From Burkholderiales bacterium (lineage in GTDB: Bacteria > Pseudomonadota > Gammaproteobacteria > Burkholderiales > Burkholderiaceae_C): a stretch of DNA of 58,664 nt. A model generated the notes under the pieces. The model ran no database searches. It saw only the letters and a list, made by a program, of their open reading frames with translations, and was not told the DNA's origin. Made by a program: the position numbers and the translations under genes. Of the stretch, positions 1-52,790 are shown piece after piece; positions within the stretch are counted from its first letter, which is position 1; every line of letters begins with the position of its first letter. Where the stretch lies: assembly GCA_025350145.1 (NCBI GenBank), contig JANXYH010000095.1:1-58664 (forward strand), given 5' to 3'.

Positions 1-126
1 GCCTGCCAGCCGGCCACGCAGCACCCGCGGTGCAGCGCATCCGGCCCGCCGCCCCGACCCAAGCGCTGCGACGCCACAGCAAGGCGCCGTGGGCAAGGCT
101 GCGCCGCCCAGCGCCACATCGGCCAG

Positions 127-418
127 CCTGCCCAAAACGGCATCATGCAGACTGCTCGACAGTCCGTCTACGACGCCCGTTCGGGCCCCGGCTGGCCAAA
201 CCCGGTCTTGGCACTGCACCTGCGACCGCCGCCGCCGCCCGGCAACGCCCGGCTCGGACGCAATGCGCATTGCATGGCGCAGGCGCTGACCTTACATTGC
301 CCCTTTGCCGACCTCCGCCCAGCGGCACGGCGCTTCTGTCCAACCCGGTTTACCCGCCGCCGGCAATACCGGCCCGCCTTGCCCGCTTCAGATCGGCGGC
401 GGATAAACGCTTTTGGTT
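127..418 (+). repeat. 290-bp dispersed repeat, copy A
   Basis: Read on the plus strand, this segment aligns by eye with the reverse complement of 52508-52790. Shared blocks include 'ctggccaaacccggtcttgg', 'cgcccggcaacgcccg', 'cctccgcccagcggcac' and 'ggataaacgctttt'. Small differences are scattered throughout. The shared region ends inside an attC-like palindrome in both copies. No transposase or terminal repeats are visible, so this is either a relic of a shared cassette or a non-autonomous element. Confidence 0.75.
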
Positions 419-422
419 GTCG
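338..422 (+). other. attC-like site A (degenerate)
   Basis: An imperfect inverted repeat runs from a core-like GTCCAAC at 338-344 to GTTGTCG at 416-422. The first fits the integron R'' consensus RYYYAAC, but the second departs from the R' consensus GTTRRRY. The arms 'gtttacccgccgccg' and 'cggcggcggataaac' pair. The central 72 bp are almost identical to site B at 1341-1429 and lie in the same direction. The degenerate R' suggests a site that no longer recombines well. Confidence 0.45.
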
Positions 423-442
423 GCGACATTACTTAACAATGC

Positions 443-1303
443 CTAAAGCTTGAGGAGAAAAGTGGCAAATTCAGGCGACGTGAAAAGTACCTTGCGTTTG
501 GGCCGCCAAAGATCGTCGAACGCTTTGCGCATGAACCGCTTCTCGTTGGATACCAATGCGTCAGCATGAAGCAAGTGCGTCATTATGTCCAGATCGGCTT
601 GGGCATTTAGATCTATGGCGTTTGGCCTTGTAGCAGCGTGATGGGCAATATAGAGCATGTTCTTCACAAACGTTGTGAAGTACGGGTAGAAATCTGGTGA
701 TCTCGCCCAACGATTTGCGACTTCTACAGGGTTGCGTGACTTCACGAGTGCAGGGATAAAGAGCTTACCGGCAAATTCCAAATTTGTATTGATGTATCCG
801 CGCAAATCAGCAACTCCGTGTTTCTTTGGGTCGTAGCTAACGTCCTGCTTCCACGCAGCAAACTCATCCCGAACCTCCTGTGAAGTCAGTTTTTGTGCAG
901 CCCTCTTGCGATCTTCTTCCGCTCGCGCCGCAGCCGATGCATGCCAAGCATGCCACGAACCATCAGATGGGACATTACGCCACGCGGCTACTAGTCGTTC
1001 GCGTCGACTCGGCTCCATGAAGATTCTTGCATTCGTGCCCCGTCCTTGAACGAGTTCGGAATGCCAGATGTCCAAAAAATCATTGCAGATGAAAGTTCCC
1101 GTGTCCGCCAAGAAAGGCAGGCGACGGGTAACAAGGTCCGCACGTCGCTTTTCGATCCCATATGTACGTTGTGTCTCCTCAATAAATATATGACCGTACA
1201 CAGGCGAGATCCGTCCACGCTGGCACAAATCCCGTAGCGGCCCCGACTCCAAGAGGTCAAAGTTGTCGTTGCTTAGGGCATTTGTATCAAAGACAACTCG
1301 CAT
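443..1303 (-). CDS. PIN-domain-like protein, cassette-borne
   Basis: A 286-residue protein. It opens with VVFDTNALS, which resembles the first PIN-domain strand with its metal-binding Asp. A second acidic region near the C-terminus (ADLDIMTHLLHADALVSNEK) resembles the later PIN motif. PIN domains are Mg2+-dependent ribonucleases, often toxins, but this protein is about twice the length of a VapC toxin and has no small antitoxin gene beside it. The middle is charged and unassigned. Base composition is clearly less GC-rich than the core genes, and the gene sits between attC-like sites A and B, so it looks like a captured cassette. The start ATG lies about 38 bp beyond site B, with only a weak ribosome-binding site. 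Nuclease function is inferred from motifs alone. Confidence 0.7.
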   Translation of the reverse strand: MRVVFDTNALSNDNFDLLESGPLRDLCQRGRISPVYGHIFIEETQRTYGIEKRRADLVTRRLPFLADTGTFICNDFLDIWHSELVQGRGTNARIFMEPSRRERLVAAWRNVPSDGSWHAWHASAAARAEEDRKRAAQKLTSQEVRDEFAAWKQDVSYDPKKHGVADLRGYINTNLEFAGKLFIPALVKSRNPVEVANRWARSPDFYPYFTTFVKNMLYIAHHAATRPNAIDLNAQADLDIMTHLLHADALVSNEKRFMRKAFDDLWRPKRKVLFTSPEFATFLLKL

Positions 1304-1340
1304 AATTTCTACTTTTGCCCCGGTGGACGCGTTTTTTGAC

Positions 1341-1429
1341 GCCTAACTAAAAGCGTTTACCCGCCGCCGGCAATACCGGCCCGCCTTGCCCGCGTCAGAT
1401 CGGCGGCGGATAAACGCCTTTGGTTAGGT
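1341..1429. other. attC-like recombination site B
   Basis: This 89-bp imperfect palindrome starts with GCCTAAC (1341-1347) and ends with GTTAGGT (1423-1429). These fit the integron core consensus RYYYAAC and GTTRRRY on both strands. The outer arms 'gacgcctaac' and 'gttaggtgtc' pair with one mismatch, and the inner arms 'aaagcgttta' and 'taaacgccttt' pair next, followed by a GC-rich stem. It begins five bases from the stop codon of the lipoprotein gene, the usual spacing in integron cassettes. Similarity to site A implies plus orientation, while gene placement implies minus; the near-symmetry does not let me decide. Confidence 0.65.
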
Positions 1430-1434
1430 GTCAT

Positions 1435-2127
1435 TCAACGTGCGCTCGCGCCGATAGTGAATTTGATAATGTTTCCAGATGAGTCCTGGCCGGAGCCAGT
1501 AGTAGTTCCACCTGCCGGGGGTGTTTCCAATGAACCGGTTGCCGTAACGCTGTTGGGACATGAAATAACCCACTGACCGCTCCTTGCTGCCTGCATGGTG
1601 TAACTTCCAATGCACTCGCCATCGCCAGTTGGAAGAGTCAGTCGAATTGTTCCATTGCGACCATTGTCTGCGATCACTACGTATCCTGAAAGTAGAGCCG
1701 AATAGAGTGTCCACTCGACAGCGATTGGTCGAGTGAGTGGTGACATTACATTTGTATTAGTTCTCAGGCTTTGCGTTGGCGGCGCTAAGGAACTCGGAGG
1801 CACAACTGGTGGTGCAGGTGACGCGGCGGCTCGCGTTTGATTTTCGGTTTTCAAAGCTGCGCGAATAGGCATTGATTCATTTGGGCAGCGGCTGGACGCG
1901 CCGCTCAACGACTGCACAATTGCTATCTGTCCATCAGGTAGTTTGATTCGATCACCCACCTTCGCGGTACTTCCTACGCAGTGCTCACCTTCCGCGCCAG
2001 TAATGCTGTCAGATGCCTTCTGAATAAGACTTCCAGGAATGAAGACAAACCAGCAGCCGCTAAGCGGCAGCGCTATTAGTAAAGTTGCTGCAACTCGAAC
2101 TATCGGTTGGTATGACATTTCATTCAT
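1435..2127 (-). CDS. Putative cassette-borne lipoprotein
   Basis: A 230-residue protein with a short basic N-terminus, a hydrophobic stretch and a lipobox LPLSGC, with the acylated Cys at about residue 25 counted from the first Met. Three closely spaced ATG codons (2127, 2118 and one between them out of phase) leave the exact start open; the form beginning MSYQP is also plausible. The mature part has a Pro/Ala-rich linker around residues 100-120 and four or more Cys residues that may form disulfides. I do not recognise the family. The stop TGA is five bases from attC-like site B, as in an integron cassette, and codon use is less GC-rich than in the neighbouring ugp genes. It is probably an envelope lipoprotein of unknown role. 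Confidence 0.65.
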   Translation of the reverse strand: MNEMSYQPIVRVAATLLIALPLSGCWFVFIPGSLIQKASDSITGAEGEHCVGSTAKVGDRIKLPDGQIAIVQSLSGASSRCPNESMPIRAALKTENQTRAAASPAPPVVPPSSLAPPTQSLRTNTNVMSPLTRPIAVEWTLYSALLSGYVVIADNGRNGTIRLTLPTGDGECIGSYTMQAARSGQWVISCPNSVTATGSLETPPAGGTTTGSGQDSSGNIIKFTIGASAR

Positions 2128-2532
2128 TCGCAGTTGAGCTGAGTCAATCTATGGGCAGCGTAGTTCACTTCTGTCAGTTGAGGATAAGAGGGGCGACGCC
2201 AATGACGCCCAACTTGTTGTCGATCCGCCGCCAGCAGAGCGAACGCTCCGGCTGCTGACACGGCCGGCGCTGCACCACGAAAGGGGCAAGTCCGGCAGGG
2301 CGGGCGATGGGGTGGGTTGCCGGCTGGACGTTGGCGACGTGGCTTCGCCACTTGCGCGGCATCCAGCGCGTTAGTATGCTGTATGAAAACACAGTATCGG
2401 CCATACCCATTCCTCCCACCGTTATTCTGTCTGTCCGGCCTGCCGGATATTCTGCTGGCCACTCCGGCCGGCCTGCACCGGTAAAACCCGCAGCGCTGCA
2501 TCGCGGCCGCATGACCGCGACCCTGCGCTGGA
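2128..2532. other. Gene-free stretch between cassette patch and ugpQ
   Basis: Open frames exist on both strands, but none has a recognisable product or convincing codon use. The stretch contains the LexA-box-like palindrome at 2379-2394. A GC-rich segment near 2440-2490 with repeated 'ccggcc' words could act as a terminator for ugpQ, though it has no T-run. I cannot assign a gene that the palindrome would control. Confidence 0.5.
2379..2394. promoter_or_regulatory. LexA (SOS) box-like palindrome
   Basis: The sequence CTGT-ATGAAAAC-ACAG matches the proteobacterial LexA consensus CTGT-N8-ACAG exactly in both half-sites, and the next two bases on the right (ta) also fit. No intact gene starts next to it on either strand. 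In related bacteria such boxes precede intI or imuA/imuB genes, so this may be the promoter of a lost gene. A chance match is possible because a single 8-base pattern is tested. Confidence 0.4.
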
Positions 2533-3309
2533 TCATCCTGCTGCCGGCGGCGGTGGTGGCCTGAAGCGGTCGACCGCGTCGGTGATCAGGCCGTCGATGC
2601 CGTCGGCCTGCAGGCGCTCTGCGGTGGCCGCGTCATTGACGGTGAAGACCAGGGCGCGCAGCCCGGCGGCATGGATCTGCGCGATCACGGCGCGGCTGGC
2701 CAGGCGCTGGTTCAGCACCATCGCAACGCAGCCCAATGCGAGGGCGGTGGCGAGGGCGGTGGCCAGGGCGGTGGCCAGGCTGTCGTCGACCAGCGCGTCC
2801 AGCAGCAGGGCCCGCGGGATGGCCGCTGCCGCCTGGCGTGCGGCCTGCAGGGCCTCGGGCTGGAACGAGCTGAACAGCGGCGGCTCGGCGCCGGCCGGCC
2901 ACAGCCGCAGGCAGGCCTGGGCTACGGCGATGCCGGTGGCGTGCTCGGTGCCGGGGGTGGGCTTGAGTTCGAGGTTGACGAAGTAGCCATTGGCGAGCAC
3001 AAAGCGCGCCACCGCGTCCAGGCTGGCGATGGGCTCGCCGGCATAGGCCGGGCTGTGCCAACTGCCGGCGTCCAGGCGCGAGAGATCGGACCAGCGCTGC
3101 GCGCCCGCCAGGCCCTGGCCACTGGTGGTGCGCTCCAGGCTGGCGTCGTGCAGCAGCAGCGGCACGCCGTCGGCACTGAGCTTGACGTCGCACTCAAACG
3201 CGCGGTGGCCCAGGCTGGCGCCGAGGCGAAACGCCGCCAGCGTGTTCTCCGGGGCGAGCTTGCCGGCGCCGCGGTGGGCGATCCAGGCGGGCAAAGGCCA
3301 GGCTGTCAT
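2533..3309 (-). CDS. ugpQ: Glycerophosphodiester phosphodiesterase
   Basis: Cytoplasmic GDPD enzyme that splits glycerophosphodiesters into glycerol 3-phosphate and an alcohol. It has 258 residues, the usual UgpQ length. The catalytic HRG is at residues 12-14, followed by PENT, the metal-site ECDV (39-42) and LLLHD (51-55), and NLELKP later on. The ATG at 3309 is the first in-frame ATG that avoids overlap with ugpC. It has an AAGGA ribosome-binding site that lies inside a 12-bp tandem repeat. Residues encoded around 2738-2779 form an in-frame Ala-Leu-Ala-Thr repeat. It is the last gene of the ugpBAECQ operon, so it would act on imported glycerophosphodiesters. Confidence 0.93.
   Translation of the reverse strand: MTAWPLPAWIAHRGAGKLAPENTLAAFRLGASLGHRAFECDVKLSADGVPLLLHDASLERTTSGQGLAGAQRWSDLSRLDAGSWHSPAYAGEPIASLDAVARFVLANGYFVNLELKPTPGTEHATGIAVAQACLRLWPAGAEPPLFSSFQPEALQAARQAAAAIPRALLLDALVDDSLATALATALATALALGCVAMVLNQRLASRAVIAQIHAAGLRALVFTVNDAATAERLQADGIDGLITDAVDRFRPPPPPAAG
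2738..2779 (+). repeat. 12-bp tandem repeat inside ugpQ
   Basis: About three and a half copies of a 12-bp unit (g[cg][gc]agggcggtg on the plus strand) encode a repeating Ala-Thr-Ala-Leu stretch in the phosphodiesterase. Because the unit is a multiple of three, copy-number change would lengthen or shorten a helix without shifting frame. Confidence 0.8.
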
Positions 3310-3346
3310 TTGGGCTGTTCCTTGGGCTGTTCCTTGGGCTGTGTCA
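3310..3346 (+). repeat. 12-bp tandem repeat carrying the ugpQ ribosome-binding site
   Basis: Three copies of the unit 'tgggctgttcct' lie directly upstream of the ugpQ start codon. On the coding strand each full unit contains AAGGAA, a Shine-Dalgarno-like sequence, so there are two such sites in series. The nearer one is about 9 bases from the ATG. Confidence 0.75.
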
Positions 3347-3364
3347 GCGCCCTGGGGCGACGGC

Positions 3365-4426
3365 TCACAGCCGTTGCCCGCTGGCCGGGTCGAACCAGTG
3401 CAGTTGCGGCGCGGCCACCGCCAGGCCAAGCACATCGCCGGGCCGGGGGGCGGCGCGCATCGCGTCTACCCGCAGGGTGAACGCGGCGGCGCCGAGCCGG
3501 CCGTAGACCAAGCGCTCGGCGCCGAGCATCTCGACCATTTCGACCGCCAGTGGCCAGCCGCCGTCGCCGCAGACCGTGGCGTGCTCGGGCCGAACACCGA
3601 GCAGCAACTCGCCCGGGCGCGGCGCGGCGGCGGGCAGCGGCAGGGAGATGCCGGCCAGCTTGAACTGCCCCGCCTCGGCGCTGCCCGCCAGCAGGTTCAT
3701 GGGCGGCGAGCCGATGAAGCCGGCGACGAAGGTGGTGGCCGGCCGGCCGTAGACCTGCTCGGGTGTGCCGATCTGCTCGATTCGCCCGGCGTTCATCACC
3801 ACCATGCGCTGCGCCAGGGTCATCGCCTCAACCTGATCGTGGGTGACGAACAGCGAGGTCACACCCAGTTCGGCGTGCAGCTTCTGGATCTCCAGCCGGG
3901 TCTGGGCACGAAGTTTGGCGTCCAGGTTGGACAGCGGCTCGTCGAACAGGAAGGCCTTGGGCTGGCGCACGATGGCCCGGCCCATCGCCACGCGCTGGCG
4001 TTGCCCGCCCGAGAGCTGGCGCGGGCTGCGCTCCAGCAGCGCCTCGAGCTCGAGGATGCGCGCGGCCTTGTGTACCCGGGCGTCGATCTCGGCCTGGGGC
4101 AGCTTGGCGATCTTCAGGCCATAGGCCATGTTGGCGTAGACGCTCATGTGCGGGTAGAGCGCGTAGTTCTGGAACACCATGGCGATATCGCGTTCGGACG
4201 GCTCGACATCGTTGACCAGCTTGCCGCCGATCATGATCTCGCCGCCGCTGACTTCTTCGAGCCCGGCCACCATCCTCAACAGCGTGCTTTTGCCGCAGCC
4301 CGAGGGGCCGACGATGACGATGAACTCGCCGTCGCCGATCTCGGCCGAGACGCCGTGGATGACCTGGTTGGCCGTGGCGCCGCGGCCATAGTGCTTGACG
4401 ACATTGCGGATCGAGATCGCGCTCAT
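3365..4426 (-). CDS. ugpC: sn-glycerol-3-phosphate ABC transporter, ATP-binding subunit
   Basis: The 353-residue ATPase of the UgpABCE importer, a member of the MalK/UgpC family. Walker [10 protein letters not shown] is at about 40-48, the Q-loop at Q86, the signature LSGGQ at 138-142, Walker B FLFDEP at 159-164 and the switch His in THD near 196. A C-terminal TOBE-type regulatory domain follows (GVRPEHATV onwards), as is normal in this subfamily. The start ATG overlaps the ugpE stop by three bases (ATGA), which indicates translational coupling. Specificity for glycerol 3-phosphate is inferred from the ugpQ and ugpB neighbours rather than from the ATPase itself. Confidence 0.93.
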
Positions 4427-5274
4427 TTTTCGCTGTCCACCAGGCCTTTGACGAACCATCTCTGCATCAGCAGCACGACCAGGGCCGGCGGCAGCATTGC
4501 CAGCATCGCGGTGGCCATGATCAGGCTCCATTCGGTCTGCGCCTCGCCGCCCGAGATCATCCGCTTGATGCCTATCACCACCGGGTACATCGCTTCCTCG
4601 GTGGTCACCAGCAGCGGCCAGAGGTACTGGTTCCAGCCGTAGATGAACTGGATCACGAACAGCGCGGCGACCGAGGTTGCCGACAGCGGCAGCAGCACAT
4701 CCCAGAAGAAGCGCATCGGGCTGGCGCCGTCCATCCGCGAGGCCTCGGTCAACTCCTCGGGCACGGTCAGGAAGAACTGGCGGAACAAAAAGGTGGCGGT
4801 GGCCGAGGCGATCAGCGGCACGGTCAAGCCGGCATAGCTGTTGAGCATGCCGAGGTCGGAAACGACCTTGTAGGTCGGCATGATGCGCACCTCGACCGGC
4901 AGCATCAGGGTGACGAAGATCGCCCAGAAGAAGGCCATCCTGAACGGGAAGCGGAAGTAGACGATGGCAAAGGCCGAGAGCAGCGAGATCGCGATCTTGC
5001 CCAGCGCGATCACCAGTGCCATCACCAGACTGACCCCCATCATCCGGCCGACGGCGGCGTTGGAGCCGTAGTGGTTGCCGCTGCCCTGCAAAGCGGCCAG
5101 GTAGTTCTCGACCAGGTGCGAGCCCGGCAGCATCGGCATGGGCGCGTGGATGATCGCCTCGGTGGTGTGGGTCGAGGCCACGAAGGTGATGTAGACCGGC
5201 AGCGCCACCACCGCCACGCCGAGCAGCAGCACCGCATGGGCCAGCCATTGCAGCCAGGGACTGCGCTCGACCAT
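4423..5274 (-). CDS. ugpE: sn-glycerol-3-phosphate ABC transporter, permease UgpE
   Basis: A 283-residue inner-membrane permease with six predicted hydrophobic segments. The cytoplasmic EAA loop [14 protein letters not shown] docks the ATPase, and the C-terminus [11 protein letters not shown] is typical of UgpE. Its ATG overlaps the ugpA stop by one base (TGATG), and its stop overlaps the ugpC start. It pairs with UgpA to form the channel, so its usefulness depends on whether the interrupted ugpA is functional. Confidence 0.93.
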
Positions 5275-6161
5275 CAGTAGTTGACCTTTTTCTCGACCAA
5301 GCGGAACTGCGCCACCGTCAGGCCGATGACGATCACCATCAGCACCACCGACTGCGCCGCCGAGCCGCCCAGGTCGAGCGCCTTGAAGCCGTCGTAATAG
5401 ACCTTGTAGACCAGGATCGCGGTGTCCCTGCCGGGGCCGCCCTTGGTCGCGGCGTCGACGATCGCGAAGGTGTCGAAGAAGGCGTAGACCATGTTGATGA
5501 CGAAGAGGAAAAACGCGGTCGGCGAGAGCAGCGGGAACTGGATCGTCCAGAAGCGCCGCCACGGCCGCGCGCCGTCGATCGCGGCTGCTTCGATCAGCGA
5601 CTTGGGGATCGATTGCAGGCCGGCGAGGAAGAACAGGAAGTTGTAGGAGAGTTGCTTCCAGACGGCGGCCATCACCACCAAAGCCATCGCGTGGCGGCTG
5701 TTGAGGAGGTGGTTCCACTCGAAGCCGGCTTGCGCCAGCAGGTACGAGACGATGCCTATGCTGGGCGCGAACATGAACATCCAGACCACCCCGGCGACCA
5801 CCGGCGCCACCGCATAGGGTCAGATCAGCAAGGTGCGGTAGACGGCGGCGCCATGCACTACCCGGTCGGCGAACACGGCCAGCAGCAACGACAGCGACAG
5901 CCCGAGTGCGGCCACCAGCACCGAGAAGACCGCCGTGGTGGCAAACGAGTCCAGGTAGCTCTCGTCGGCCCAGAGGTTGCTGAAGTTCTCCAGCCCGACC
6001 CACTCGACCGAGGTGCCAAAGGCGTCGGACTGCTGCAGAGATTGCAGCAGCGCCTGCGCCGCCGGCCAGAAGAAGAACAGCGTGATGATCGCCGCCTGCG
6101 GCGCGATCAGCAGCCAGGGCAGCCAGCGCGAGCGGAAGACGACCCGTTTCTCGGCAGCCAT
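5274..6161 (-). pseudogene. ugpA: sn-glycerol-3-phosphate ABC transporter, permease UgpA, interrupted by TGA
   Basis: The reading frame encodes a full-length UgpA permease of about 295 codons with the normal membrane segments, but it is broken at 5820-5822 by TGA. The context reads YRTLLI[14 protein letters not shown]. From memory of the family a Trp usually sits here, so the change is most simply TGG to TGA. Both sides remain in the same frame, with no other damage and normal codon use. This suggests a very recent nonsense mutation, a sequencing error, or read-through. The second half has a GTG at 5808-5810 but no good ribosome-binding site. The gene sits correctly between ugpB and ugpE. If the stop is real, uptake by this transporter is probably lost. 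Confidence 0.85.
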
Positions 6162-6187
6162 GGGCGCGCGCCTGCTGGGCTGCCGGC

Positions 6188-7501: not shown

Positions 7502-7526
7502 GCAAACTCCGTCGGCAAGTAGAAAA

Positions 7527-12226: not shown

Positions 12227-12232
12227 GCGGCC

Positions 12233-25720: not shown

Positions 25721-26970
25721 AGGGCTGCGGTGGCCTCGCTTGGCTGGCTGGCCTGCTCTGCGCGCTGGTCTGCCAGGCGCAGACGTCAGCCTTGGGGCCG
25801 GCCTTGGGGCCGGTCTTGGGTCCGGTCTTGGGTCCGGTCTTGGGTCCGGCCTTGGGTCCGGTGGGCCTGGACTATTTCGGCCTGGTGCTCAGCCGCCCCG
25901 ACCCGGCCATGCCCTGGCCCAGCGTGCCGTTCGGCAGTTGGCGGCTGTGGGACGCGCAGGTCAGTTGGCCGCAGCTCGAACCTGTTCCCGGCCGCTGGAA
26001 TTTCGCCCTGCTGGACCGGCTGGTCGACGAGGCCACGGCGCACCGCAGCAAGCTGCTGCTGGTGCTGGCGCATTCGCCGCCCTGGGCCTCGTCCCGGCCA
26101 GACGAGGCCAGCGCCTACCGGCCGGGCTACGCCGCGCCGCCGCTGCGGATCGAGGACTGGCGCCGCTATGTGCGCAGCGTGGCCGAGCGCTACCGCGGCC
26201 GGATCGAGGCCTACCAGGTCTGGAACGAACCCAGCGACAGCAGCCATTACAGCGGCAGCGTCGCCCAACTGGTCGAGTTGAGCTGTGAGGCGCGGCGGGT
26301 GATCGCGGCGGTCGACCCGGCGGCAAAGCTCGTCTCGGCCGGCTCGGCCGGCGGCGGCCGCCACATCCAGTACCTCGACGACTTCCTCGCCCAGGGCGGC
26401 GACCGCTGCATCGACGTCGTCGCCCACCACTTCTACGTGCCGCGCTTCGGCCCCGAGCAGATGCTGCCGCTGATCCGCCAGGTGCGCGAGGTGATGCGTC
26501 GCCGCGGGGTCGATCATCTGCCGCTGTGGAACACCGAGACCGGCTGGTGGATCGCCAACACCGACGGCACGCCCGACCACCCCCTGGTCGCCAACGGCGG
26601 CTGGCGCAAGCTCGACGCCGATGCCGAGGCCGGCGCGACCCTGCAACGCGCCTTCCTGCTCGCCCGCGGCGCCGGTGTCGAGCGCCTGTACTGGTATGCC
26701 TGGGCGAATGCCGCTTGGGGTTTGAGCCAGGCCAGCGGCAAGCCCAAATCGGCCGCCAATTACTGGACTGCCTTGGTCGAGCAAATGCTCGGTCGCAGGC
26801 TCGCCAACTGCCAGCGCGACGGCCAGCGCATGGCCTGCCGGCTGATCAGCGCGGACGGCCGGTCGAACGATCTGCAATGGGATATCGGCGACGCCCTGCA
26901 GGCCCGTGAAGGCCCGGCCGGTCAGCCGCAGCAGGCCGCCGCGATACCCTATGCGCCGGTGCCGCGTTGA
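25699..26970 (+). CDS. Secreted glycoside hydrolase of clan A (GH39 / PslG-like)
   Basis: A 423-residue protein with a signal peptide (hydrophobic GLAWLAGLLCALVCQA). Next comes a low-complexity linker of six Ala/Val-Leu-Gly-Pro repeats encoded at 25789-25860, then a (beta/alpha)8 hydrolase domain. The likely acid/base is Glu177 in QVWNEPSDSSH and the likely nucleophile Glu280 in LWNTETGWW, the pair expected of clan GH-A retaining enzymes such as GH39. In the Pseudomonas Psl locus the similar enzyme PslG trims or releases polymer; an equivalent role here is inferred. The GTG at 25699 is preceded by AGAAGGGG at good spacing. It is the last gene of the plus-strand eps operon. Confidence 0.82.
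   Translation: MGLVRALKGCGGLAWLAGLLCALVCQAQTSALGPALGPVLGPVLGPVLGPALGPVGLDYFGLVLSRPDPAMPWPSVPFGSWRLWDAQVSWPQLEPVPGRWNFALLDRLVDEATAHRSKLLLVLAHSPPWASSRPDEASAYRPGYAAPPLRIEDWRRYVRSVAERYRGRIEAYQVWNEPSDSSHYSGSVAQLVELSCEARRVIAAVDPAAKLVSAGSAGGGRHIQYLDDFLAQGGDRCIDVVAHHFYVPRFGPEQMLPLIRQVREVMRRRGVDHLPLWNTETGWWIANTDGTPDHPLVANGGWRKLDADAEAGATLQRAFLLARGAGVERLYWYAWANAAWGLSQASGKPKSAANYWTALVEQMLGRRLANCQRDGQRMACRLISADGRSNDLQWDIGDALQAREGPAGQPQQAAAIPYAPVPR
25789..25860 (+). repeat. Six-copy 12-bp tandem repeat in the glycosidase gene
   Basis: Six uninterrupted 12-bp units alternate between 'gccttggggccg', 'gtcttgggtccg' and 'gccttgggtccg'. They encode Leu-Gly-Pro-Ala/Val tetrapeptides directly after the signal peptide. 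Copy number can change without a frameshift, altering the length of the linker. Confidence 0.9.
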
Positions 26971-41750: not shown

Positions 41751-42155
41751 ATGCCGATCTACGCCTACCGATGTGCCGACTGCGGCCATGCCAAGGACGT
41801 GCTGCAAAAGCTGTCCGACCCGCTGCTGCACACCTGCCCGGCCTGCGGCGCCGAGGCCTTTGCCAAACAGGTCACGGCGGCGGGCTTCCAACTCAAAGGT
41901 TCGGGCTGGTACGCGACCGATTTCAAGAGCAGCGGTGCGGCGCCGGCCAAGCCCGATGCGCAGCCCGACAAGGCTGATGGCGCCAAGTCGGATCCGGCCA
42001 AGGCCGACGGCGCGAAATCTGACGGCGCCAAGTCCGACGGCGCCAAATCTGACGCCGCCAAGGCCGACGGTGCCAAAGCTGACAGCGCCAAGTCCGATTC
42101 CAAAGCAGTGTCGGCTGCGCCGGCCGCCGCAGCGCCGGCCGCCCCTGCGGCCTGA
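41751..42155 (+). CDS. FmdB family zinc-ribbon protein with repeat tail
   Basis: A 134-residue protein. The first 60 residues are the FmdB zinc ribbon: MPIYAYRCADCGHAKDVLQK with Cys pairs CADC and CPAC, ending GSGWYATDF. The second half is unusual: a Lys/Asp/Ala/Ser-rich tail built from ADGAKSD-type repeats (about residues 70-115) and an Ala/Pro end. The family normally ends soon after the ribbon with a short low-complexity tail. Function of FmdB proteins is unknown; a regulatory role was suggested for the founding member. It is followed by DUF502 and aspS, a conserved order. Confidence 0.9.
   Translation: MPIYAYRCADCGHAKDVLQKLSDPLLHTCPACGAEAFAKQVTAAGFQLKGSGWYATDFKSSGAAPAKPDAQPDKADGAKSDPAKADGAKSDGAKSDGAKSDAAKADGAKADSAKSDSKAVSAAPAAAAPAAPAA
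41970..42102 (+). repeat. Degenerate 15/21-bp repeats in the fmdB tail
   Basis: Units such as 'gacggcgccaagtcc' and 'gccaaggccgacggc' are repeated about eight times with small changes. They encode alternating Lys and Asp separated by Ala, Gly or Ser. Unit length is always a multiple of three. Confidence 0.75.
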
Positions 42156-44784: not shown

Positions 44785-44834
44785 TGGCTGCCGGGCAAGG
44801 CCCTGGCGGTGGCAACATCCGGCCTACGCCCGTT

Positions 44835-44868: not shown

Positions 44869-44932
44869 CGGGCCCATGCCGGTCCAGGCCCGGCGCGCCG
44901 GCACCGACGCGGGCCCAACCCGAGGAGCCGTG

Positions 44933-46551: not shown

Positions 46552-46556
46552 GCAGC

Positions 46557-47369
46557 ATGGTGCGCCGCGCTACCAGTCTTGCGTCCTCGCGTCCGGCGCT
46601 GCCCAACCGGCAGGCCCGCCAGGTGCTGCGCGTGGCCACCTACAACATCCACAAGGGGGTGCGCGGCCTGGGGCCAGCAAAGCGGCTGGAGATCCACAAC
46701 CTCGGGCTGGGGATAGAGGCGCTGGACGCCGACCTGGTGGCGCTGCAGGAGGTGCGCCTGTACCACCAGCGCGACGCGCTGCGCTTCGAGCGCACCTTGC
46801 TGGGCTGGCCCGAGCAGGGCCAGGCCGAGTTCCTGGCGCCCGAGGGCTATGCCGTGGCCTACCGCAGCAACGCGGTGACGCGCGGCGGCGAGCATGGCAA
46901 CGCGCTGCTGGCGCGCTGGCCGATGGGCGACATCGGGCACCACGATGTCAGCGACCACCGCTTCGAGCAGCGCGGCCTGCTGCATGTGCCGGTGCTGTGG
47001 CACGGCCACACTGTGCACGCCGTGGTCGTGCACTTTGGCCTGATCCATGCCAGCCGGGTGCGCCAGGTCGAGCGCCTGGCCGAGTTCATCGCCGCCACGG
47101 TGCCGGCCGACGCGCCGCTGCTGGTGGCGGGTGATTTCAACGACTGGGGCGAGCGGCTGGACGAGCCCATGGCCGCGATCGGCCTGAGCCGCGCCCGCCA
47201 TGGCGGCCCGCTGGCGCAGCGCACCTTCCCCTCGCGCGTGCCGCTGTTCGCCCTGGACCGGGTCTACCTGCGCGGCCTGCGTTGCGTCGGCTCCAGCGTG
47301 CCGCGCGGCGCCGCCTGGGCGCGCATGTCCGACCACCTGCCGCTGCTGGTCGACCTGGCGCTGGCCTGA
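46557..47369 (+). CDS. Endonuclease/exonuclease/phosphatase family protein
   Basis: A 270-residue EEP-superfamily protein. It has LRVATYNIHKGVRG with the metal-site Asn, LVALQEVRL with the catalytic Glu, the VVHFGLIHASR His, AGDFNDWGE and MSDHLPLLVDL with the final Asp-His pair. Substrate may be a phospholipid or a nucleic acid. It directly precedes clsB by a few bases, an arrangement common in Proteobacteria that suggests a role in phospholipid turnover. Confidence 0.88.
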   Translation: MVRRATSLASSRPALPNRQARQVLRVATYNIHKGVRGLGPAKRLEIHNLGLGIEALDADLVALQEVRLYHQRDALRFERTLLGWPEQGQAEFLAPEGYAVAYRSNAVTRGGEHGNALLARWPMGDIGHHDVSDHRFEQRGLLHVPVLWHGHTVHAVVVHFGLIHASRVRQVERLAEFIAATVPADAPLLVAGDFNDWGERLDEPMAAIGLSRARHGGPLAQRTFPSRVPLFALDRVYLRGLRCVGSSVPRGAAWARMSDHLPLLVDLALA

Positions 47370-47373
47370 CGCC

Positions 47374-48717
47374 GTGCCCGGCCACGCCAGCCGCCCGGCT
47401 CAGCAGCGGCGCTCGCGCGCCGAGCGTCGCCGCCCGCCGCTGACCGGTGGCAACCAGGTGCAGTTGCTGCAAGGCGGCGAGGAGTTGTTCGAGGCCATGG
47501 TCCAGGCCATCGGCCAGGCCCGCAGCCGGGTCTGGCTGGCGACCTACCTGTTCCACGACGACCCGGCGGCGCAGCGCATCGCCAAGGCGCTGGTGGTCGC
47601 GGCCGAGCGCGGCGTGCAGGTCGCGGTGGTGGTCGACGGCTTCGGCGCCAAGGCCACGCTGGCCAGCCTGCGCGGCTGGTTCGAGCCGGCGGGCGTCGAG
47701 TTCGCGGTCTTCCGCCCGGCCCAGCGCTGGTGGCAGGTCGCCCAGCCCGGCCAGTTGCGCCGCCTGCACCAGAAGCTGTGCGTGGTCGACGACGAGGTCG
47801 GCTTTGTCGGTGGTATCAACCTCATCGACGACCGCAACGACCTGCGCCACGGCTGGTCCGACCGGCCACGGCTGGACTTTGCGGTCAGCCTGCGCGGCCC
47901 GGTGGTGGCCTATGTCGCGCAGACCGCCCAGGCGATGTTCATGCGCGCCCGTCTGGGCACGGCCTGGCGCGACGAGATCGGCCAGTTGCTGCGCGGCGCC
48001 GAACCCCTGGCCGCTGCCCGGCAGATGCTCGCGCGGCTGCGGATCGTGCCGCTGGCCGCAGGCAGCCCGTCGACGCGGCGATCGGCAGATGCCTCGGCCG
48101 AGGACGCCTGCGAGGCCGCGACTTCGGCCGCCGCGCTGGCGCCGGTGCGCGCCAGCTTCGTGGTTCGCGACAACCTGCGCCAGCGCCGGGCGATTGAGCA
48201 GGCCTATGTCCAGGCGATAGACGCTGCCAGCACCCGGGTCGACATCGTCTGCCCCTACTTCTACCCCGGCCAGACCTTCCGCACCAGCCTGTGCCGCGCT
48301 GCCCGACGCGGCGTCGCGGTACGGCTGCTGCTGCAGGGCAAGGCCGACTACCATTTCGCCGCGCTCGCCGCCCAGGTGCTGTACCAGGAACTGCTGGGCG
48401 CAGGCGTGCGGGTGTTCGAGTACACGCCCGCCTTCCTCCACGCCAAGGTGGCCCTGGTCGATGACGACTGGGCGACGGTCGGCAGCTCCAACATCGACCC
48501 ACTGTCGCTGCTGCTGAACCTGGAGGCCAACGTGATCGTCCGCGATACCGAATTCAGCGCCACCCTGGCCAGCCGGATCGAGCTGGCCTTCGCCGACTGC
48601 CGCGAGGTCATTCTGCCGGGCCTGGGCGTAGGCTGGCTGGCGGCCCTGCGCCGCAGCCTGGTCGCCTGGACCGCCTACTGGTTCCTGCGCCTGGCGGGGA
48701 TCAGCGGGCGGTATTGA
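47374..48717 (+). CDS. clsB: Cardiolipin synthase B
   Basis: A 447-residue phospholipase-D-type protein with two HKD motifs: HQKLCVVDD in the first half and HAKVALVDD near residue 355. YLFHDDPAA, GGINLIDDRND and GSSNIDPLSLLLNLEANV are typical of ClsB, which makes cardiolipin without N-terminal transmembrane helices. The start is a GTG at 47374; no ATG is available in the right place. A low-complexity Ala/Ser-rich linker (about residues 230-260) separates the halves. Confidence 0.92.
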   Translation: MPGHASRPAQQRRSRAERRRPPLTGGNQVQLLQGGEELFEAMVQAIGQARSRVWLATYLFHDDPAAQRIAKALVVAAERGVQVAVVVDGFGAKATLASLRGWFEPAGVEFAVFRPAQRWWQVAQPGQLRRLHQKLCVVDDEVGFVGGINLIDDRNDLRHGWSDRPRLDFAVSLRGPVVAYVAQTAQAMFMRARLGTAWRDEIGQLLRGAEPLAAARQMLARLRIVPLAAGSPSTRRSADASAEDACEAATSAAALAPVRASFVVRDNLRQRRAIEQAYVQAIDAASTRVDIVCPYFYPGQTFRTSLCRAARRGVAVRLLLQGKADYHFAALAAQVLYQELLGAGVRVFEYTPAFLHAKVALVDDDWATVGSSNIDPLSLLLNLEANVIVRDTEFSATLASRIELAFADCREVILPGLGVGWLAALRRSLVAWTAYWFLRLAGISGRY

Positions 48718-48825
48718 GGACAAGTGTCAGATATTTCAATGCCCAGGAATATTGTGAATAAAGTTAAACCTATCGTAAGACTTCTCTACTTAATTCTGGC
48801 AATATTTTAGGTCTTTGAGTTTTGA

Positions 48826-49026
48826 TTGTACGTTGATGGATTTGAAATAAACGGTAAAGAGGTTTCTCAAGTGGACTTGTGGACAGGTATCATTTCTGCG
48901 TACTCTAGACGAACGCAAGGCCGAAGTGGCTTGGTAGGGTTCGGGCTCGGAATTTTGACCGGAATTGTTTTAATATCTATAGGAGCAATGGCCCTTCAAG
49001 GTTTGCATGCGGCTGCCCACCCGTAA
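48826..49026 (+). CDS. Small membrane protein, possibly truncated
   Basis: A 66-residue open frame in notably AT-rich DNA. It ends in one hydrophobic helix (LVGFGLGILTGIVLISIGAMAL). The only usable start is TTG at 48826, directly after an in-frame stop, with no good ribosome-binding site. It may be the 3' end of a longer broken gene. I do not recognise the family. It lies between clsB and the cassette genes and has base composition unlike either. Confidence 0.35.
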   Translation: MYVDGFEINGKEVSQVDLWTGIISAYSRRTQGRSGLVGFGLGILTGIVLISIGAMALQGLHAAAHP

Positions 49027-49040
49027 ATGAGACTTAGGCC

Positions 49041-49769
49041 TCAAATGTCCTGTTTCAGTCGAGCAAGGTCTTGATTGATTCCCAGGATTGCGAATCGCTC
49101 GGGCAGAATACGTTCGAATAGGGAGAGAGTACATACACCTACCTGTGCGGCAGTCTTTAGCGCACATTGTAGCGGTTGACCAATGCCCTGAAGATAGCTA
49201 ACGGAAAACTGCACATGTGTCGGCTGCCTGGCAAGTTTTAGCGTCTGCATCAGGGCCAACTCATTGGGATGCGCCCCAAGATCGATTGTCCGATCATAAA
49301 GTGCCCTAGCAACTTTCCCTTCCCCTGGGGCAACTTGGGTGGCTAGCTTGAGAAGCGAGCCGATTTTGAATTCATCCTTCACCTTCTTTTTAGAATGTGC
49401 GCTGTCTTCCCTATGTAGCCAAGTTTTCTGGGAACTTGGATTCTTTGAGAGATAAAGGCCATATAGAGCGTTCTCCAGTGCTGAGCGCAGCAACGCATAG
49501 CTTTCCGGAAGCTGACCGCTCCAAGTCAGACGGCATGCGCCAAGAAGGTTTGAATGTGTGCGCAAGATGAATAGGCCGGCGAACCAATTCTTTGAATTGT
49601 CAAAGGCGCGAATTGTTTGGCGAAAGGCGCGATCGATCTCAATCAACCTGCCAACCTCTCGCGGAAGATTTGCAAAGGTGGCGAACTCATTGGTGCGGGA
49701 AGCATCAAGGAACCTGGTGATCTCGTTCGATGACCAATTTGGAGGTGGTTGGGTTTGTGCTGATGTCAT
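49041..49769 (-). CDS. Hypothetical cassette-borne protein
   Basis: A 242-residue, mostly helical soluble protein of unknown family. The segment ESYALLRSALENALYGLYLSKNP resembles a motif in uncharacterised DUF5677-like proteins, but I am not sure of this. No signal peptide or membrane segment is present. Its ATG lies nine bases beyond the R' core of attC-like site C, a spacing typical of integron cassettes, and GC content is low compared with the core genes. The stop is followed by 'ggcctaag', a weak match to an attC start. Confidence 0.6.
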   Translation of the reverse strand: MTSAQTQPPPNWSSNEITRFLDASRTNEFATFANLPREVGRLIEIDRAFRQTIRAFDNSKNWFAGLFILRTHSNLLGACRLTWSGQLPESYALLRSALENALYGLYLSKNPSSQKTWLHREDSAHSKKKVKDEFKIGSLLKLATQVAPGEGKVARALYDRTIDLGAHPNELALMQTLKLARQPTHVQFSVSYLQGIGQPLQCALKTAAQVGVCTLSLFERILPERFAILGINQDLARLKQDI

Positions 49770-49777
49770 TTGGTGAG

Positions 49778-49862
49778 ATCCAACCAGAAGCGTTCATCTG
49801 TCGCTTATCCGACGTTGATAAGTCAGGCCGTTATTGCCGGCGGCGCGTAAACCACGTTGAAC
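49778..49862 (-). other. attC-like recombination site C
   Basis: On the minus strand this 85-bp palindrome starts with GTTCAAC (49862-49856) and ends with GTTGGAT (49784-49778), both exact fits to the integron core consensus RYYYAAC and GTTRRRY. The inner arms contain 'gtttacgcgccgccgg' on one side and a weaker partner on the other. About 20 bp next to GTTCAAC are shared with site D. The gene at 49041-49769 begins directly after it, and a truncated hipA ends directly before it. Confidence 0.6.
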
Positions 49863-49991
49863 TGAAGCCAGCGAGCTTGGCCCGTAGCGCAGAGAAACCC
49901 AGTTGCTTGAGGCGACCAGCTTCAATGCGCCGACGAACTTCGGTGTTTGGGGGTCGCCCAGATACCAGAGGTGGATATCGTTCAGCCTCAT
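49794..49991 (-). pseudogene. hipA: Truncated HipA toxin fragment
   Basis: The frame starts one base after hipB and encodes about 45 residues resembling the N-terminus of HipA kinases (LNDIHLWYLGDPQTPKFVGALKL, then NWVSLRYGPSSLAS). It then runs into attC-like site C and stops about 20 residues later with unrelated sequence. Full HipA proteins have about 400 residues, so the kinase domain is missing and the toxin cannot be active. The break coincides with the GTTCAAC core. Confidence 0.6.
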
Positions 49992-49992
49992 C

Positions 49993-50406
49993 TCAACCCC
50001 GCTTCGACCGTTTCGGTCCGGTCGGGACTGCGGGCGTGCGCGCTTGTGTTGGGACGGCGCGCGCCCGCGCTTCTGCGGCGTTGCGTGTCCGCGCGCGGCC
50101 GAGCGCGATAGCCGCGCGCACATCCATCTCTATGGCGCCGCGGTCGTGTTCTGGCGCAGCCAGATTCCCCAGCTCGCCATCACGCTGGATGAGCCAAAGC
50201 GCACTGGCGACAATCCCTATGCCCACCCCAGGGTCGCCTGCCTCCAAGCGCTGCAACGTGGACACCGTCACCCCCAGCCGTTGCGCCCAGGACCGCAGCG
50301 ACTCCTTGCGCCGCAGGCGCGCAACGGCCAAGTCGGCGCCGAGCTTTTCGATGGCGCCGGATGTCGCGGGAGACAGTTGCAGCAATGCGCGCGCGGTCTT
50401 TGGCAT
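49993..50406 (-). CDS. hipB: HipB-like XRE family antitoxin/regulator
   Basis: A 137-residue protein with an N-terminal Cro/C1-type helix-turn-helix (about 18-75, containing SLRSWAQRLGVTVSTLQRLEAGD). The C-terminal tail is Arg/Ala-rich and basic. HipB proteins bind operator DNA and neutralise HipA. Here the downstream hipA is truncated, so this is an orphan antitoxin or regulator. The ATG at 50406 is preferred to the longer frame. An AT-rich region with a TATATT-like -10 lies directly upstream, and an imperfect inverted repeat at 50431-50463 may be its operator. Confidence 0.75.
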   Translation of the reverse strand: MPKTARALLQLSPATSGAIEKLGADLAVARLRRKESLRSWAQRLGVTVSTLQRLEAGDPGVGIGIVASALWLIQRDGELGNLAAPEHDRGAIEMDVRAAIALGRARTRNAAEARARAVPTQARTPAVPTGPKRSKRG

Positions 50407-50430
50407 ACCGATAGAATATAACAATACGGC

Positions 50431-50463
50431 GCTCAACTACTGATTGATCGGTAGATGTTGAAC
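50431..50463. promoter_or_regulatory. Inverted repeat upstream of hipB
   Basis: GCTCAACTAC (50431-50440) and GTAGATGTTGAAC (50451-50463) form an imperfect palindrome with a ten-base centre. It lies 25 bases above the hipB start, where an autoregulatory operator would be expected. Its ends also resemble attC core boxes, but the 33-bp length is too short for an attC. Confidence 0.4.
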
Positions 50464-50571
50464 TGATCCGCCATTGCTCGACCCCATTGAGCCGGTCAAC
50501 TCGGTCGCCCTGAACGGCGCTGTCCACGGACACATGACTGAACAAGCCCAGGACTGCGGCGACCGCTGTTG

Positions 50572-50600
50572 TTGACAAAGCCTTCCATAAGGTTGATAAT
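50572..50600 (+). promoter_or_regulatory. Sigma-70 promoter for the HTH-ATPase-STAS gene
   Basis: A perfect -35 box TTGACA (50572-50577) and a -10 box GATAAT (50595-50600, one mismatch from TATAAT) are separated by the ideal 17 bases. The start codon follows 24 bases downstream. GTTGACA occurs at 50571-50577 and again at 50614-50620, overlapping the leader, and may be a direct-repeat operator. Confidence 0.7.
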
Positions 50601-50624
50601 AAAGGGTGCAGAAGTTGACAATCT

Positions 50625-51683
50625 ATGACCAAAGTTCGACCCGGCGGGGAGGCTGTTCGCAGGTTCATCATCGACAGCCTGGGGGCGCATCCGCGAGACA
50701 TTGTTCGGGTCACGGCGGAGAAGTTCGGCTGCTCGCGGCAAGCGGTACACAAGCACCTGCAGCGACTGATCGCGGACGGCTCAGCCACCGACGACGGGCA
50801 GACCAGGAGCAAGACCTATCGGCTCGCGCCCTTGGTGCAGTGGCGCAAGCAGTATGAACTGGCTACTGGTCTGGCGGAGGATGTGGTCTGGCGCACCGAC
50901 ATATCAGAATTGCTCGGCAAGTTGCCAGAAAATGTACTGAGCATCTGGCACTACGGATTCACCGAGATGTTCAACAACGTGATTGATCACTCCGAGGCTA
51001 GGCTGGTCTCGATCTCCCTGCAGAAGACCGCTGCAGCGACCACGATCAATATCTACGACGATGGCGTCGGAATCTTCAAGAAGATCCAGGCGGCCCTTGT
51101 CCTGATGGACGAACGGCATGCGGTGCTTGAACTCGCAAAGGGTAAGTTCACAACCGACCCTCGCCACCATTCTGGAGAAGGGATATTCTTCACTTCAAGA
51201 GTGTTGGACGAGTTCATCATCTCGTCGGGCGAAGTGTTCTTCTCACATCAGTTTGACGAGCGCGAAGACTGGATACTGCACTCGAGCTCTGGCAGTGGTG
51301 GCACCCTGGTGAAGATGGTGCTACACAACCATACCGCTCGGACGATCAAGAAGGTTTTTGACAATTTTACCTCTGGTGATGACTATGGCTTCACCAAGAC
51401 CGTGGTGCCGGTCAAGCTGATGCGCTACGGCGATGATAATTTAGTCTCTCGATCACAGGCCAAGCGTCTGCTGACCCGTGTCGATAGATTTAAGACGGTT
51501 GTGCTTGACTTCGCAGGCGTTGCCGGTATCGGTCAGGCTTTCGCGGACGAAGTATTTCGGGTGTTCAGGTCCAAGCATCCGAGTGTAAAAGTGGCCGCTG
51601 TCAATACCTCATCCGAGGTGAAGCGGATGATCACCCGCGCAGAGTCGCTCGGCGCGCAGGGTGATGCTAGTGATGCCACCTAA
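50625..51683 (+). CDS. Winged-helix / GHKL ATPase / STAS-like (DUF4325) fusion protein
   Basis: A 352-residue protein with three modules. Residues 1-70 form a winged helix-turn-helix (DIVRVTAEKFGCSRQAVHKHLQRL). Residues about 85-220 form a GHKL-type ATPase like anti-sigma kinases, with an N-box FTEMFNNVIDHSEA, G1 box YDDGVGIF and G2-like HHSGEGIF. Residues about 255-345 match the STAS-like DUF4325 domain (TVVLDFAGVAGIGQAFADEVFRVF). SpoIIAB and SpoIIAA carry the last two functions as separate proteins, so this looks like a self-contained phosphorylation switch with its own DNA-binding head. Targets are unknown. It diverges from hipB, lies in accessory DNA and has a near-consensus promoter. Confidence 0.8.
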   Translation: MTKVRPGGEAVRRFIIDSLGAHPRDIVRVTAEKFGCSRQAVHKHLQRLIADGSATDDGQTRSKTYRLAPLVQWRKQYELATGLAEDVVWRTDISELLGKLPENVLSIWHYGFTEMFNNVIDHSEARLVSISLQKTAAATTINIYDDGVGIFKKIQAALVLMDERHAVLELAKGKFTTDPRHHSGEGIFFTSRVLDEFIISSGEVFFSHQFDEREDWILHSSSGSGGTLVKMVLHNHTARTIKKVFDNFTSGDDYGFTKTVVPVKLMRYGDDNLVSRSQAKRLLTRVDRFKTVVLDFAGVAGIGQAFADEVFRVFRSKHPSVKVAAVNTSSEVKRMITRAESLGAQGDASDAT

Positions 51684-51689
51684 ATGGGG

Positions 51690-52403
51690 TCAGGCCTTCG
51701 TGTACAGGAGGTGAACCGTGCTCGTCGTGCTGTACTGAACATCAATTGTAAAAATGGTCAATGTTCCGTCGCTGGCGATTCGATATTTGGATTGGCTGGT
51801 AAACAAGAGTTGATTAGCGGTATTGTAGCTTCTGGTTATGAGTATGACGAATGCGGTGCTAGCCGAGTCGGCCTCAACGACGTAGCTTAGCTGACGCTGG
51901 CCAGTTAAAGTTGCCTTCGTGCTGTCGGTATAAACCGTAACGGTTGCGTAAACAGCAGTATCACCGACTTTGACAGTTGTTGGCAAAGGCGGTGGTGCAG
52001 TCTGGAACTTGGTGTAATCAACACCAGGGAATGATGAACCTAGGAGTGTATAACTTGCGTCGTGGTAAAGGGTGCCAGTAACAGCATTCGATGCCGGAGT
52101 GCAGTTAGTGAAGTTAATCGTTGCTGTCTGACCTGAAGAATATCCACTTACACCCTCAAATGTGGCCGGCGATGTCGCGCTGGTCGTGATCGTCGCCGTG
52201 CCGCTACAAGTACCTGAGATCGTGAAACTGTCTGCTGAACCGGCTGCTACACGAGTTCTATAGCCTGCCTGCAAGGGAAATGAGGTTATTGGAGTTGCAC
52301 CTGTACTTTCGCTGCCCCCTCCTCCGCCGCCGCCGCCGCATGCGGTGAAGGTGAAGGCAATGCAGATGAAAACAGAGGCAAGTGCTGGCTTCGGAAATGA
52401 CAT
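51690..52403 (-). CDS. Polyglycine lipoprotein, unknown function
   Basis: A 237-residue protein with a signal peptide and lipobox (FTFTAC), giving an acylated Cys followed by a run of eight Gly, a pattern common in Comamonadaceae lipoproteins. The rest is rich in Thr, Ser and Val with beta-strand character and one Cys pair (GTCSG and NFTNCTP). AAGGGAG lies close upstream of the ATG. The family is not recognised. It converges with the HTH-ATPase-STAS gene with six bases between them. Attachment to the outer-membrane inner leaflet is likely. Confidence 0.75.
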   Translation of the reverse strand: MSFPKPALASVFICIAFTFTACGGGGGGGGSESTGATPITSFPLQAGYRTRVAAGSADSFTISGTCSGTATITTSATSPATFEGVSGYSSGQTATINFTNCTPASNAVTGTLYHDASYTLLGSSFPGVDYTKFQTAPPPLPTTVKVGDTAVYATVTVYTDSTKATLTGQRQLSYVVEADSASTAFVILITRSYNTANQLLFTSQSKYRIASDGTLTIFTIDVQYSTTSTVHLLYTKA

Positions 52404-52500
52404 GTGGACTCCCTTTTGTAGATGGCCGCTTCGGTGAAGCGGTTCGTATAGTGTTACATAAACTCCGGCGGAGTAGCGGTACGTTGGATCCGGGCTCGAA

Positions 52501-52586
52501 GTCCCACTGAAAAGCGTTTATCCGCCACCCATCCGACGCCGGCAAAGCAAGCCGGAATAACCAGCGGCGGATAAACCACGTTGAAC
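52501..52586 (-). other. attC-like site D (degenerate)
   Basis: Read on the minus strand, an 86-bp imperfect palindrome starts with GTTCAAC (52586-52580) and ends with GTGGGAC (52507-52501), one base from GTTRRRY. The arms 'ggtttatccgccg' and 'ggcggataaacg' pair. It is shared in part with site A (inverted) and with site C near GTTCAAC. The lipoprotein gene follows about 100 bases downstream. Confidence 0.45.
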
Positions 52587-52790
52587 TGAAGCGCGGTGCC
52601 GCTGGGCGGAGGTAGGTGTAGGGGCAAGGTAGGGTCGGCGCTCGCCCCGCGCAATGCGCGTTGCGCCCGAAGCGGGCGTTGCCGGGCGGCGACGGCGGCC
52701 GCTGGCGTCGGACCAAGACCGGGTTTGGCCAGTCGGGGCTTGATCGGGCGTCGTATACGGACAGTCGGGCAGGCTGGACGCCGTTGTGGT
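52508..52790 (-). repeat. 290-bp dispersed repeat, copy B
   Basis: The reverse complement aligns with 127-418 by eye over almost its whole length, including the outer part 'gtccgtatacgacgcccg' and the attC-like inner end. The two copies face each other across about 52 kb. Divergence looks moderate, so the copies are not recent duplicates. Confidence 0.75.

Follow-up and report, generated by a model that had tools for sequence, protein, structure and literature searches.

Four palindromes on a contig of a Burkholderiales genome are probably relics of the right end of an IS91-family element that behaves as a gene cassette

We analysed the whole of contig C106 (JANXYH010000095.1; 58,664 bp, here called the window) from the draft genome of a Burkholderiales bacterium (4.56 Mb in 211 contigs), in which a first-pass annotation had marked four palindromes as attC-like sites of an integron lacking its integrase gene, intI. 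The palindromes are present where they had been placed, at 338-422, 1341-1429, 49778-49862 and 52501-52586, and their link with integrons is upheld in part: the left group is a true integron remnant, whereas the palindromes themselves are not ordinary attC sites. They are probably what remains of the right (3') end of an element of the IS91 family, one that behaves like a cassette of an integron. We call the terminal hairpin of this element P and the flank next to it F; conserved flanks of about 200 bp, corresponding to F, accompany both outer sites of the window and had been missed by the first-pass annotation. Scores below refer to two covariance models, R1 for attC sites and R2 for the right end of the element. 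The left locus (1-2.4 kb) and its neighbour comprise the following features:

110..333, plus strand: flank F, a relic of the element's 3' part, ending TTCTGTCCAAC; 11 matches in the genome, the query itself counted
334..428, plus strand: hairpin end P (site 338-422), target side GTTGTCG toward the cassettes; R2 54.1 bits, E 6e-10
443..1303, minus strand: cassette-like open reading frame (ORF) b, 286 aa, GC 0.51; Pfam matches below cut-off only
1341..1429, no strand assigned: symmetric hairpin without F, at the attC place between ORFs a and b; R2 38.7/37.5 bits, R1 13.4 bits, fold z -5.3
1435..2127, minus strand: cassette-like ORF a, 230 aa, GC 0.52; no Pfam match
2207..2220, minus strand: predicted attI core ACAACAAG|TTGGGC, within a 17-nt exact match to the attI region of a genus mate
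2379..2394, no strand assigned: predicted LexA-type operator CTGT-N8-ACAG, within an 18-nt exact match to the intI promoter region of a genus mate
2533-3435: GDPD enzyme, the next gene where intI was lost

Read on the minus strand, the order is operator, attI core, ORF a, symmetric P, ORF b, P and F, an integron relic that has lost intI and kept a predicted operator, an attI core and two cassette-like ORFs. No match to intI was found in the window, as the first-pass annotation had noted; the attI core and operator at 2.2-2.4 kb had escaped it. The comparison covered 18 intI regions of genus mates, the 17- and 18-nt matches coming from different mates, and none of 200 control stretches shared a word of 16 nt or more. 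The operator motif by itself is weak evidence, because about one would be expected by chance in a window of this size (an estimate). In its exact matches the locus resembles the sedentary chromosomal integrons of the genus, from which it differs in having no intI and in carrying the element's hairpin in place of an internal attC. The outer boxes of 1341-1429 on the minus strand, ACCTAAC (R'') and GTTAGGC (R'), suggest that a symmetric P replaced the attC there, perhaps through two insertions in opposite orientation followed by deletion between the palindromic arms. At the left edge of the window a second repeat (1-110) lies outside F; by eye, on contig C84 (L023, ~3870-3975) it borders a P-F unit that is oppositely oriented and has no cassettes.

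The right locus (48.8-52.8 kb) consists of another group of orphan ORFs and two relics of P:

49041..49769, minus strand: cassette-like ORF d, 242 aa, beginning 8 nt from the hairpin core; weak DUF5677 match below cut-off
49772..49866, minus strand: eroded P (site 49778-49862), core GTTGGAT toward ORF d; R2 42.3 bits, E 3e-7; no stable fold
49993..50436, minus strand: helix-turn-helix-like (HTH-like) ORF, 147 aa, GC 0.67 (host-like); Pfam HTH matches below cut-off
50625..51683, plus strand: DUF4325 protein (E 1.7e-14) with a HATPase-like match, 352 aa, GC 0.56
51690..52403, minus strand: cassette-like ORF c, 237 aa, GC 0.51; no Pfam match
52496..52590, minus strand: P (site 52501-52586), core decayed to AGTGGGA; R2 66.7 bits, E 1e-12
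52591..52802, minus strand: flank F of the right hairpin, inverted with respect to the left copy; 81% identity

On the minus strand this locus runs F, P, ORF c, other genes, eroded P, GTTGGAT and ORF d. The low-GC orphan genes previously described near the sites are borne out for four of the six ORFs there (GC 0.50-0.52) and not for the two at 0.56 and 0.67, the window as a whole having a GC content of 0.678. Tandem repeats with units of 15 and 12 bp occur at 41966-42100 and 25779-25862, respectively.

The palindromes had been credited with paired arms and with ends that fit or nearly fit the core boxes RYYYAAC and GTTRRRY. The fit is exact on both sides in 1341-1429 (GCCTAAC/GTTAGGT) and 49778-49862 (ATCCAAC/GTTGAAC), and one-sided in 338-422 (GTCCAAC, GTTGTCG) and 52501-52586 (GTTGAAC). 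Folded as single-stranded DNA with DNA parameters, 1341-1429 is strong (z -4.7 and -5.3 for the two strands), 338-422 (-1.4, -2.9) and 52501-52586 (-2.7, -2.4) are moderate, and 49778-49862 gives no stable fold on either strand (-0.3 and +0.4); of the two sites singled out earlier as the best, the latter therefore has exact boxes on both sides and no fold. Over 267 nt the stretches 148-414 and 52510-52776 are 81% complementary to each other, as inverted copies, so that the likeness of the outer sites extends well past the palindrome into F. Because of this complementarity, and because a model without any sequence of this genome detects all four sites, their relatedness is beyond chance.

An attC covariance check had been proposed in the first-pass annotation. 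We used R1, a model trained on 12 attCs from relatives in the genus, family and order, and distinct from that of IntegronFinder. In intI loci its full-length matches, taken on the array strand, scored 31.9-127.4 bits, and the held-out sites L101 and L098:9001-9057 scored 68 and 49 bits. In a 2.6-kb search without filters, 1341-1429 was the top match, near background at 13.4 bits (E 0.014), while 338-422, 49778-49862 and 52501-52586 stayed at background, with no site-length match. The background scores that the first-pass annotation had named as refuting its attC reading were thus obtained for three sites and very nearly for the fourth. A search of the window against Rfam returned no match at gathering scores, and a strict hand-made attC scan recovered 1341-1429 only. 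By direct reading, attCs of relatives show an unpaired base in the inner box and spacers of 5 and 6 nt; in the four sites of the window, likewise read from sequence, the spacers are 7/7 or 3/7 and we could see no extrahelical base in the inner arms. Conversely, R2, built from 17 right ends of the IS91-family element in other genomes and from none in this one, found all four window sites (66.7, 54.1, 42.3 and 38.7 bits) and had no match in 47 intI loci (284 kb), a search from which L095, an intI locus with P that belonged to the training set, was excluded. Tested in both directions, P and ordinary attCs did not overlap at the thresholds used, save for the 13.4 bits of 1341-1429. This site matches only model positions 15-94 of R2, on both strands (38.7 bits on plus, 37.5 on minus), and is therefore a symmetric copy in which the target-side end is doubled and F is absent.

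The hairpin end reads TTCAGTYCAAC-NNG-GTTTATCYGCCGC-(about 34)-GCGGCRGATAAAC-GCTATTC-GTTRRRY, and the end of F in the window resembles the TTCAGTYCAAC conserved in complete elements. In the 17 ends used for R2, 93.7% of stem cells are paired (32-49% when slid), and double changes number 10, where shuffles give 4.2. In the genome under study R2 placed P at 12 sites at E 0.001 (13 matches, 1341-1429 being counted on two strands), besides a further piece interrupted by the end of contig C50, far from the hundreds of recurrences that, according to the first-pass annotation, would have spoken against its reading. Contigs C18 and C50 end within the palindrome and C21 within F, which indicates that the assembly breaks at this repeat. 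Transposase relics occur only on C108 (beside F) and C98. Contig C141 carries in a row an N-terminal fragment of intI, F, P, GTTAGGC and an ORF (protease-like by eye), and the C-terminal end of an intI lies at the edge of C111. The genome has intI fragments outside the window and no match over the TIGR02249 (integron integrase) cut-off, which 15 of 20 genus mates and 54 of the 100 genomes searched, this one counted among the 100, exceed. We considered F as the attI of this genome's own integron, given its place beside the intI fragment on C141, and dropped the idea since complete elements share that end. All copies found in this genome would be elements decayed to P, with or without F. Two further places carry what reads, from sequence, as a toxin-antitoxin gene pair: on C108 (L025, 5126-5915) a symmetric P without F is followed by an apparent antitoxin/PIN-type toxin pair, and on C158 a similar pair lies beside P.

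The same end is found well beyond this genome. A 20-nt pattern taken across the junction of palindrome and F was present in 11 of 200 family genomes, and its reverse in none; with a looser pattern the figures were 32 of 399 family genomes and 63 places, against 2 for its reverse. At least one place of the first pattern, in G228 (L115), was discarded as a chance match with no palindrome. A scan of one genome per species returned at least 118 stretches, and among the matches listed (80 titles) betaproteobacteria predominate. An early notion that P marks 'reverse' integrons was abandoned once complete elements with that end were found. In L205 (G380:C691, ~5013 in element direction) the stem of P is interrupted, by eye, by a look-alike of a group II intron 5' end; group IIC introns target attC hairpins.

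The complete element, about 2.5 kb long, combines an IntI-related tyrosine recombinase and a Y2 (HUH) IS91 transposase with F and hairpin P at its right end. One genome, G180, contains a 2,570-bp element in three copies; relative to the first, the second is 99.9% and the third 99.8% identical. Their right-hand flanks differ, and the copies define the element ends. It starts with GTTGAACTAAACCGC, of which the first bases are GTTGAAC, and its 3' order is F, P and then GTT. The tyrosine recombinase has domains PF00589 and PF13495 (two copies scanned), and the transposase, with its zinc-binding domain, matches PF04986 and PF14319 above cut-off (three copies scanned). The recombinase ORF is open in 17 of 20 two-ended loci. 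Against the IntI family model this recombinase reaches about 98-116 bits per matched piece, the cut-off being 265, and it has no extra IntI-specific stretch; in a tree, 16 element recombinases are separate from 21 IntI proteins, with outgroup branches that are long and a root that is not firm. In L262 P is joined directly to GTTGAACTAAACCGC, as expected of a tandem or circle junction. Transposases of the element type (at least 60% identity) were present in 2 of 323 matching plasmid records. IntI over cut-off was found in 14 of 33 genomes examined, namely the 32 with P, including the genome under study, plus G016.

What follows P ties the element to integrons. In one set of sites (genome_contigs; 11 duplicates, 6 sites without a recognisable second arm and 1 at a contig end excluded) P was followed by GTT in 57 of 64 and by GTTRRRY in 32 of 64; in the other (family; 3 sites without an arm excluded) the counts were 45 and 20 of 52. 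The two sets overlap in genomes, so their counts are not to be summed. Matches to the attC model (E 0.1 or better, 20-74 bits) were counted from the first P per locus, with similar lengths searched on its two sides (232 and 280 kb; 210 and 175 kb). Of these matches, 35 of 38 in the one set and 23 of 28 in the other lay downstream of P on its own strand, spread over 25 of 80 and 14 of 52 loci, respectively. At 14 of 37 different loci the first attC has an R'' that is exactly reverse-complementary to the core at P; for the next core this holds at 2 of 37. One of 2,000 shuffles reached the observed total. Since R'' of the first attC complements the core at P, cassettes begin at P in those loci.

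The left end points the same way in a part of the copies. Among 20 non-redundant two-ended copies, eight are preceded on the left, at the attI position, by a divergently oriented intI or by a match to its N-terminal part, seven of them at 123-206 nt and the eighth (L235) with an ORF call that extends to the element; in three others (L137, L217 and L284) the element abuts an attC, as read by eye in the flanks. A search for the uninterrupted target in the genus of G180 yielded, in sister genomes, regions homologous to L130 and L131 that carry an IntI-like ORF and an identical G|TT core, which makes these left flanks attI-like. At the attI copies L130, L131, L139, L225 and L271 the intI match is often N-terminal only, 36 to 96 aa or fewer, as though one-ended transposition had taken along a piece of intI; for L278 the left flank covered was only 246 bp.

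The clearest case is an Escherichia coli clinical plasmid, pM216_AC2 (L347, NZ_AP018145.1, 2976-5556), in which the element sits inside a class 1 integron. On its left the attC of aac(6')-IIa (R1 30.1 bits) ends in R' = G|TTGAAC, which are the first bases of the element; on its right P (R2 77.3 bits) is followed by G|TTAGGC and aadA4. The element thus occupies an exact cassette slot with G|TT at both joints. A megablast of this copy against 72,556 plasmid records returned two, the plasmid itself and, weakly, one from Polaromonas; in the E. coli genomes it found nothing. Elsewhere among plasmids, in pA29BJ2 of Polaromonas (L327, 7446-8533), P is directly followed by another gene annotated as a tyrosine-type recombinase.

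We favour the cassette reading because both ends of the element are integron cores, because copies are often at the first position and because one lies in a class 1 array. On this reading the element would move in the manner of a cassette, P serving as a variant attC whose folded strand is joined at G|TT to attI or attC through a resident IntI or perhaps through the element's own recombinase, while the transposase may spread copies to new places. Several observations weigh against this. P does not have the canonical features of attC, its spacers being 3 and 7 rather than about 5 and 6, with no extrahelical base seen and with an attC-model score at background. Stem covariation comes from 2 of the 13 pairs; of five measures, two, namely the number of pairs with double changes and that of further pair types, are not above shuffles. 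GTT is missing after P in 7 of 64 and 7 of 52 sites, some of the attC matches counted downstream, which go down to 20 bits, may be false, and the mean R'' match is close for the core at P and the next core (5.3 and 5.1 of 7). Nine of the 20 two-ended copies are at neither a recognised attI nor a recognised attC, although some left flanks are short. No recombinase or transposase relic was found within the window itself, and cassette b has no attC of its own, its end not being complementary to its start. Finally, IS91-type transposition with a GTTR target would produce many of these junctions as well.

This last point leads to the main rival, a plain IS91-type rolling-circle transposon that inserts before GTTR, in which P is the oriIS hairpin, integron cores merely supply the target and no recombination as a cassette ever takes place. 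The element does encode an IS91 transposase, the short GTT target is compatible with the behaviour of IS91, whose targets are GAAC/CAAG, the near-identical copies in G180 are dispersed, and nine of the 20 two-ended copies are outside recognised attI and attC sites. Yet the bases after GTT fit RRRY in 32 of 57 and 20 of 45 sites, where about 1 in 16 would be expected by chance, 11 of the 20 two-ended copies are at attI or attC with a left end that is itself a GTTRRRY core, and attC-model matches are scarce upstream of P (2 of 38 and 5 of 28) and common downstream, as for a first-position cassette. On balance we consider a plain transposon unlikely. Far less can be said for the view that the four sites are true attCs of cassettes scattered without an integrase (clusters of attCs lacking integrases, CALIN). 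Boxes fit in two sites, low-GC orphan ORFs are present, an attI core and operator are nearby and the left group runs ORF-site-ORF-site; but with 13.4 bits for one site, no site-length match for three, the same hairpin end in 32 of 399 family genomes by pattern and all four sites scored by the element-end model, it is largely refuted by the two models and very improbable. A repeat family of the repetitive extragenic palindromic (REP) or miniature inverted-repeat transposable element (MITE) type, unlinked to integrons, had been named in the first-pass annotation as the alternative. The repeat is indeed dispersed over 12 places, with transposase relics at only two places of the genome, but it is the end of a mobile element: complete copies, which encode two recombinases, often sit at attI or attC and have cassettes with attCs following P, refute this explanation, to which we give hardly any credence.

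A stronger form of the cassette reading is more tentative. With an IntI-related recombinase that lacks the IntI-specific domain, the element might be a self-sufficient cassette and capture platform that uses P as an attC/attI analogue to gather and spread cassettes, so that arrays would arise without IntI, for example in G180. This genome, a single contig, has P at seven dispersed sites, of which three precede an attC-model match, and no IntI over cut-off, a setting in which the element's own recombinase could act on P. It also contains intI relics, and its cassettes may instead date from a lost IntI; we regard the platform as doubtful.

Mobile elements drawn to integron recombination sites include IS1111-attC and group IIC-attC introns, and ISShvi3 carries a tyrosine recombinase. 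The former two, mentioned in PMC9229058, insert into attC, whereas the present element brings an attC-like end of its own and stands in for a cassette. ISShvi3, which is IS91-like, was reported next to an attC in one Shewanella integron as a 'new gene cassette structure' (PMC9229058). Going by the description available from that source, it is a single case whose ends were not analysed, set apart from the element by the hairpin anatomy, the G|TT joints, the occurrence in many betaproteobacterial genomes and the arrays headed by P. For ISCR28, an IS91-like element of sul4 modules, attC at or after the ISCR28 genes (data not shown) and passive shuffling as a cassette have been discussed (PMC12772301); those modules concern drug resistance, and the portion of the account consulted mentions neither hairpin anatomy nor a companion recombinase. 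In comparison with integron attCs and cassettes, the element shares the RYYYAAC/GTTRRRY boxes, the single-strand hairpin, the G|TT joint and the position in the array, and it differs in P spacers of 3/7 with no extrahelical base seen, in being missed by the attC model and in its 2.5 kb with two recombinases. In the open-licence papers searched we found no description of the hairpin end, its anatomy, the general pattern or P-headed arrays. The finding is partly anticipated in print, and the window itself contains relics only.

The origin of cassettes and the existence of arrays far from any integrase are open questions. If our reading is true, an insertion sequence with an attC-like end links rolling-circle transposition and integron recombination in one element, which would account for dispersed arrays and for some odd attC-like sites; the element has entered a class 1 integron at least once.

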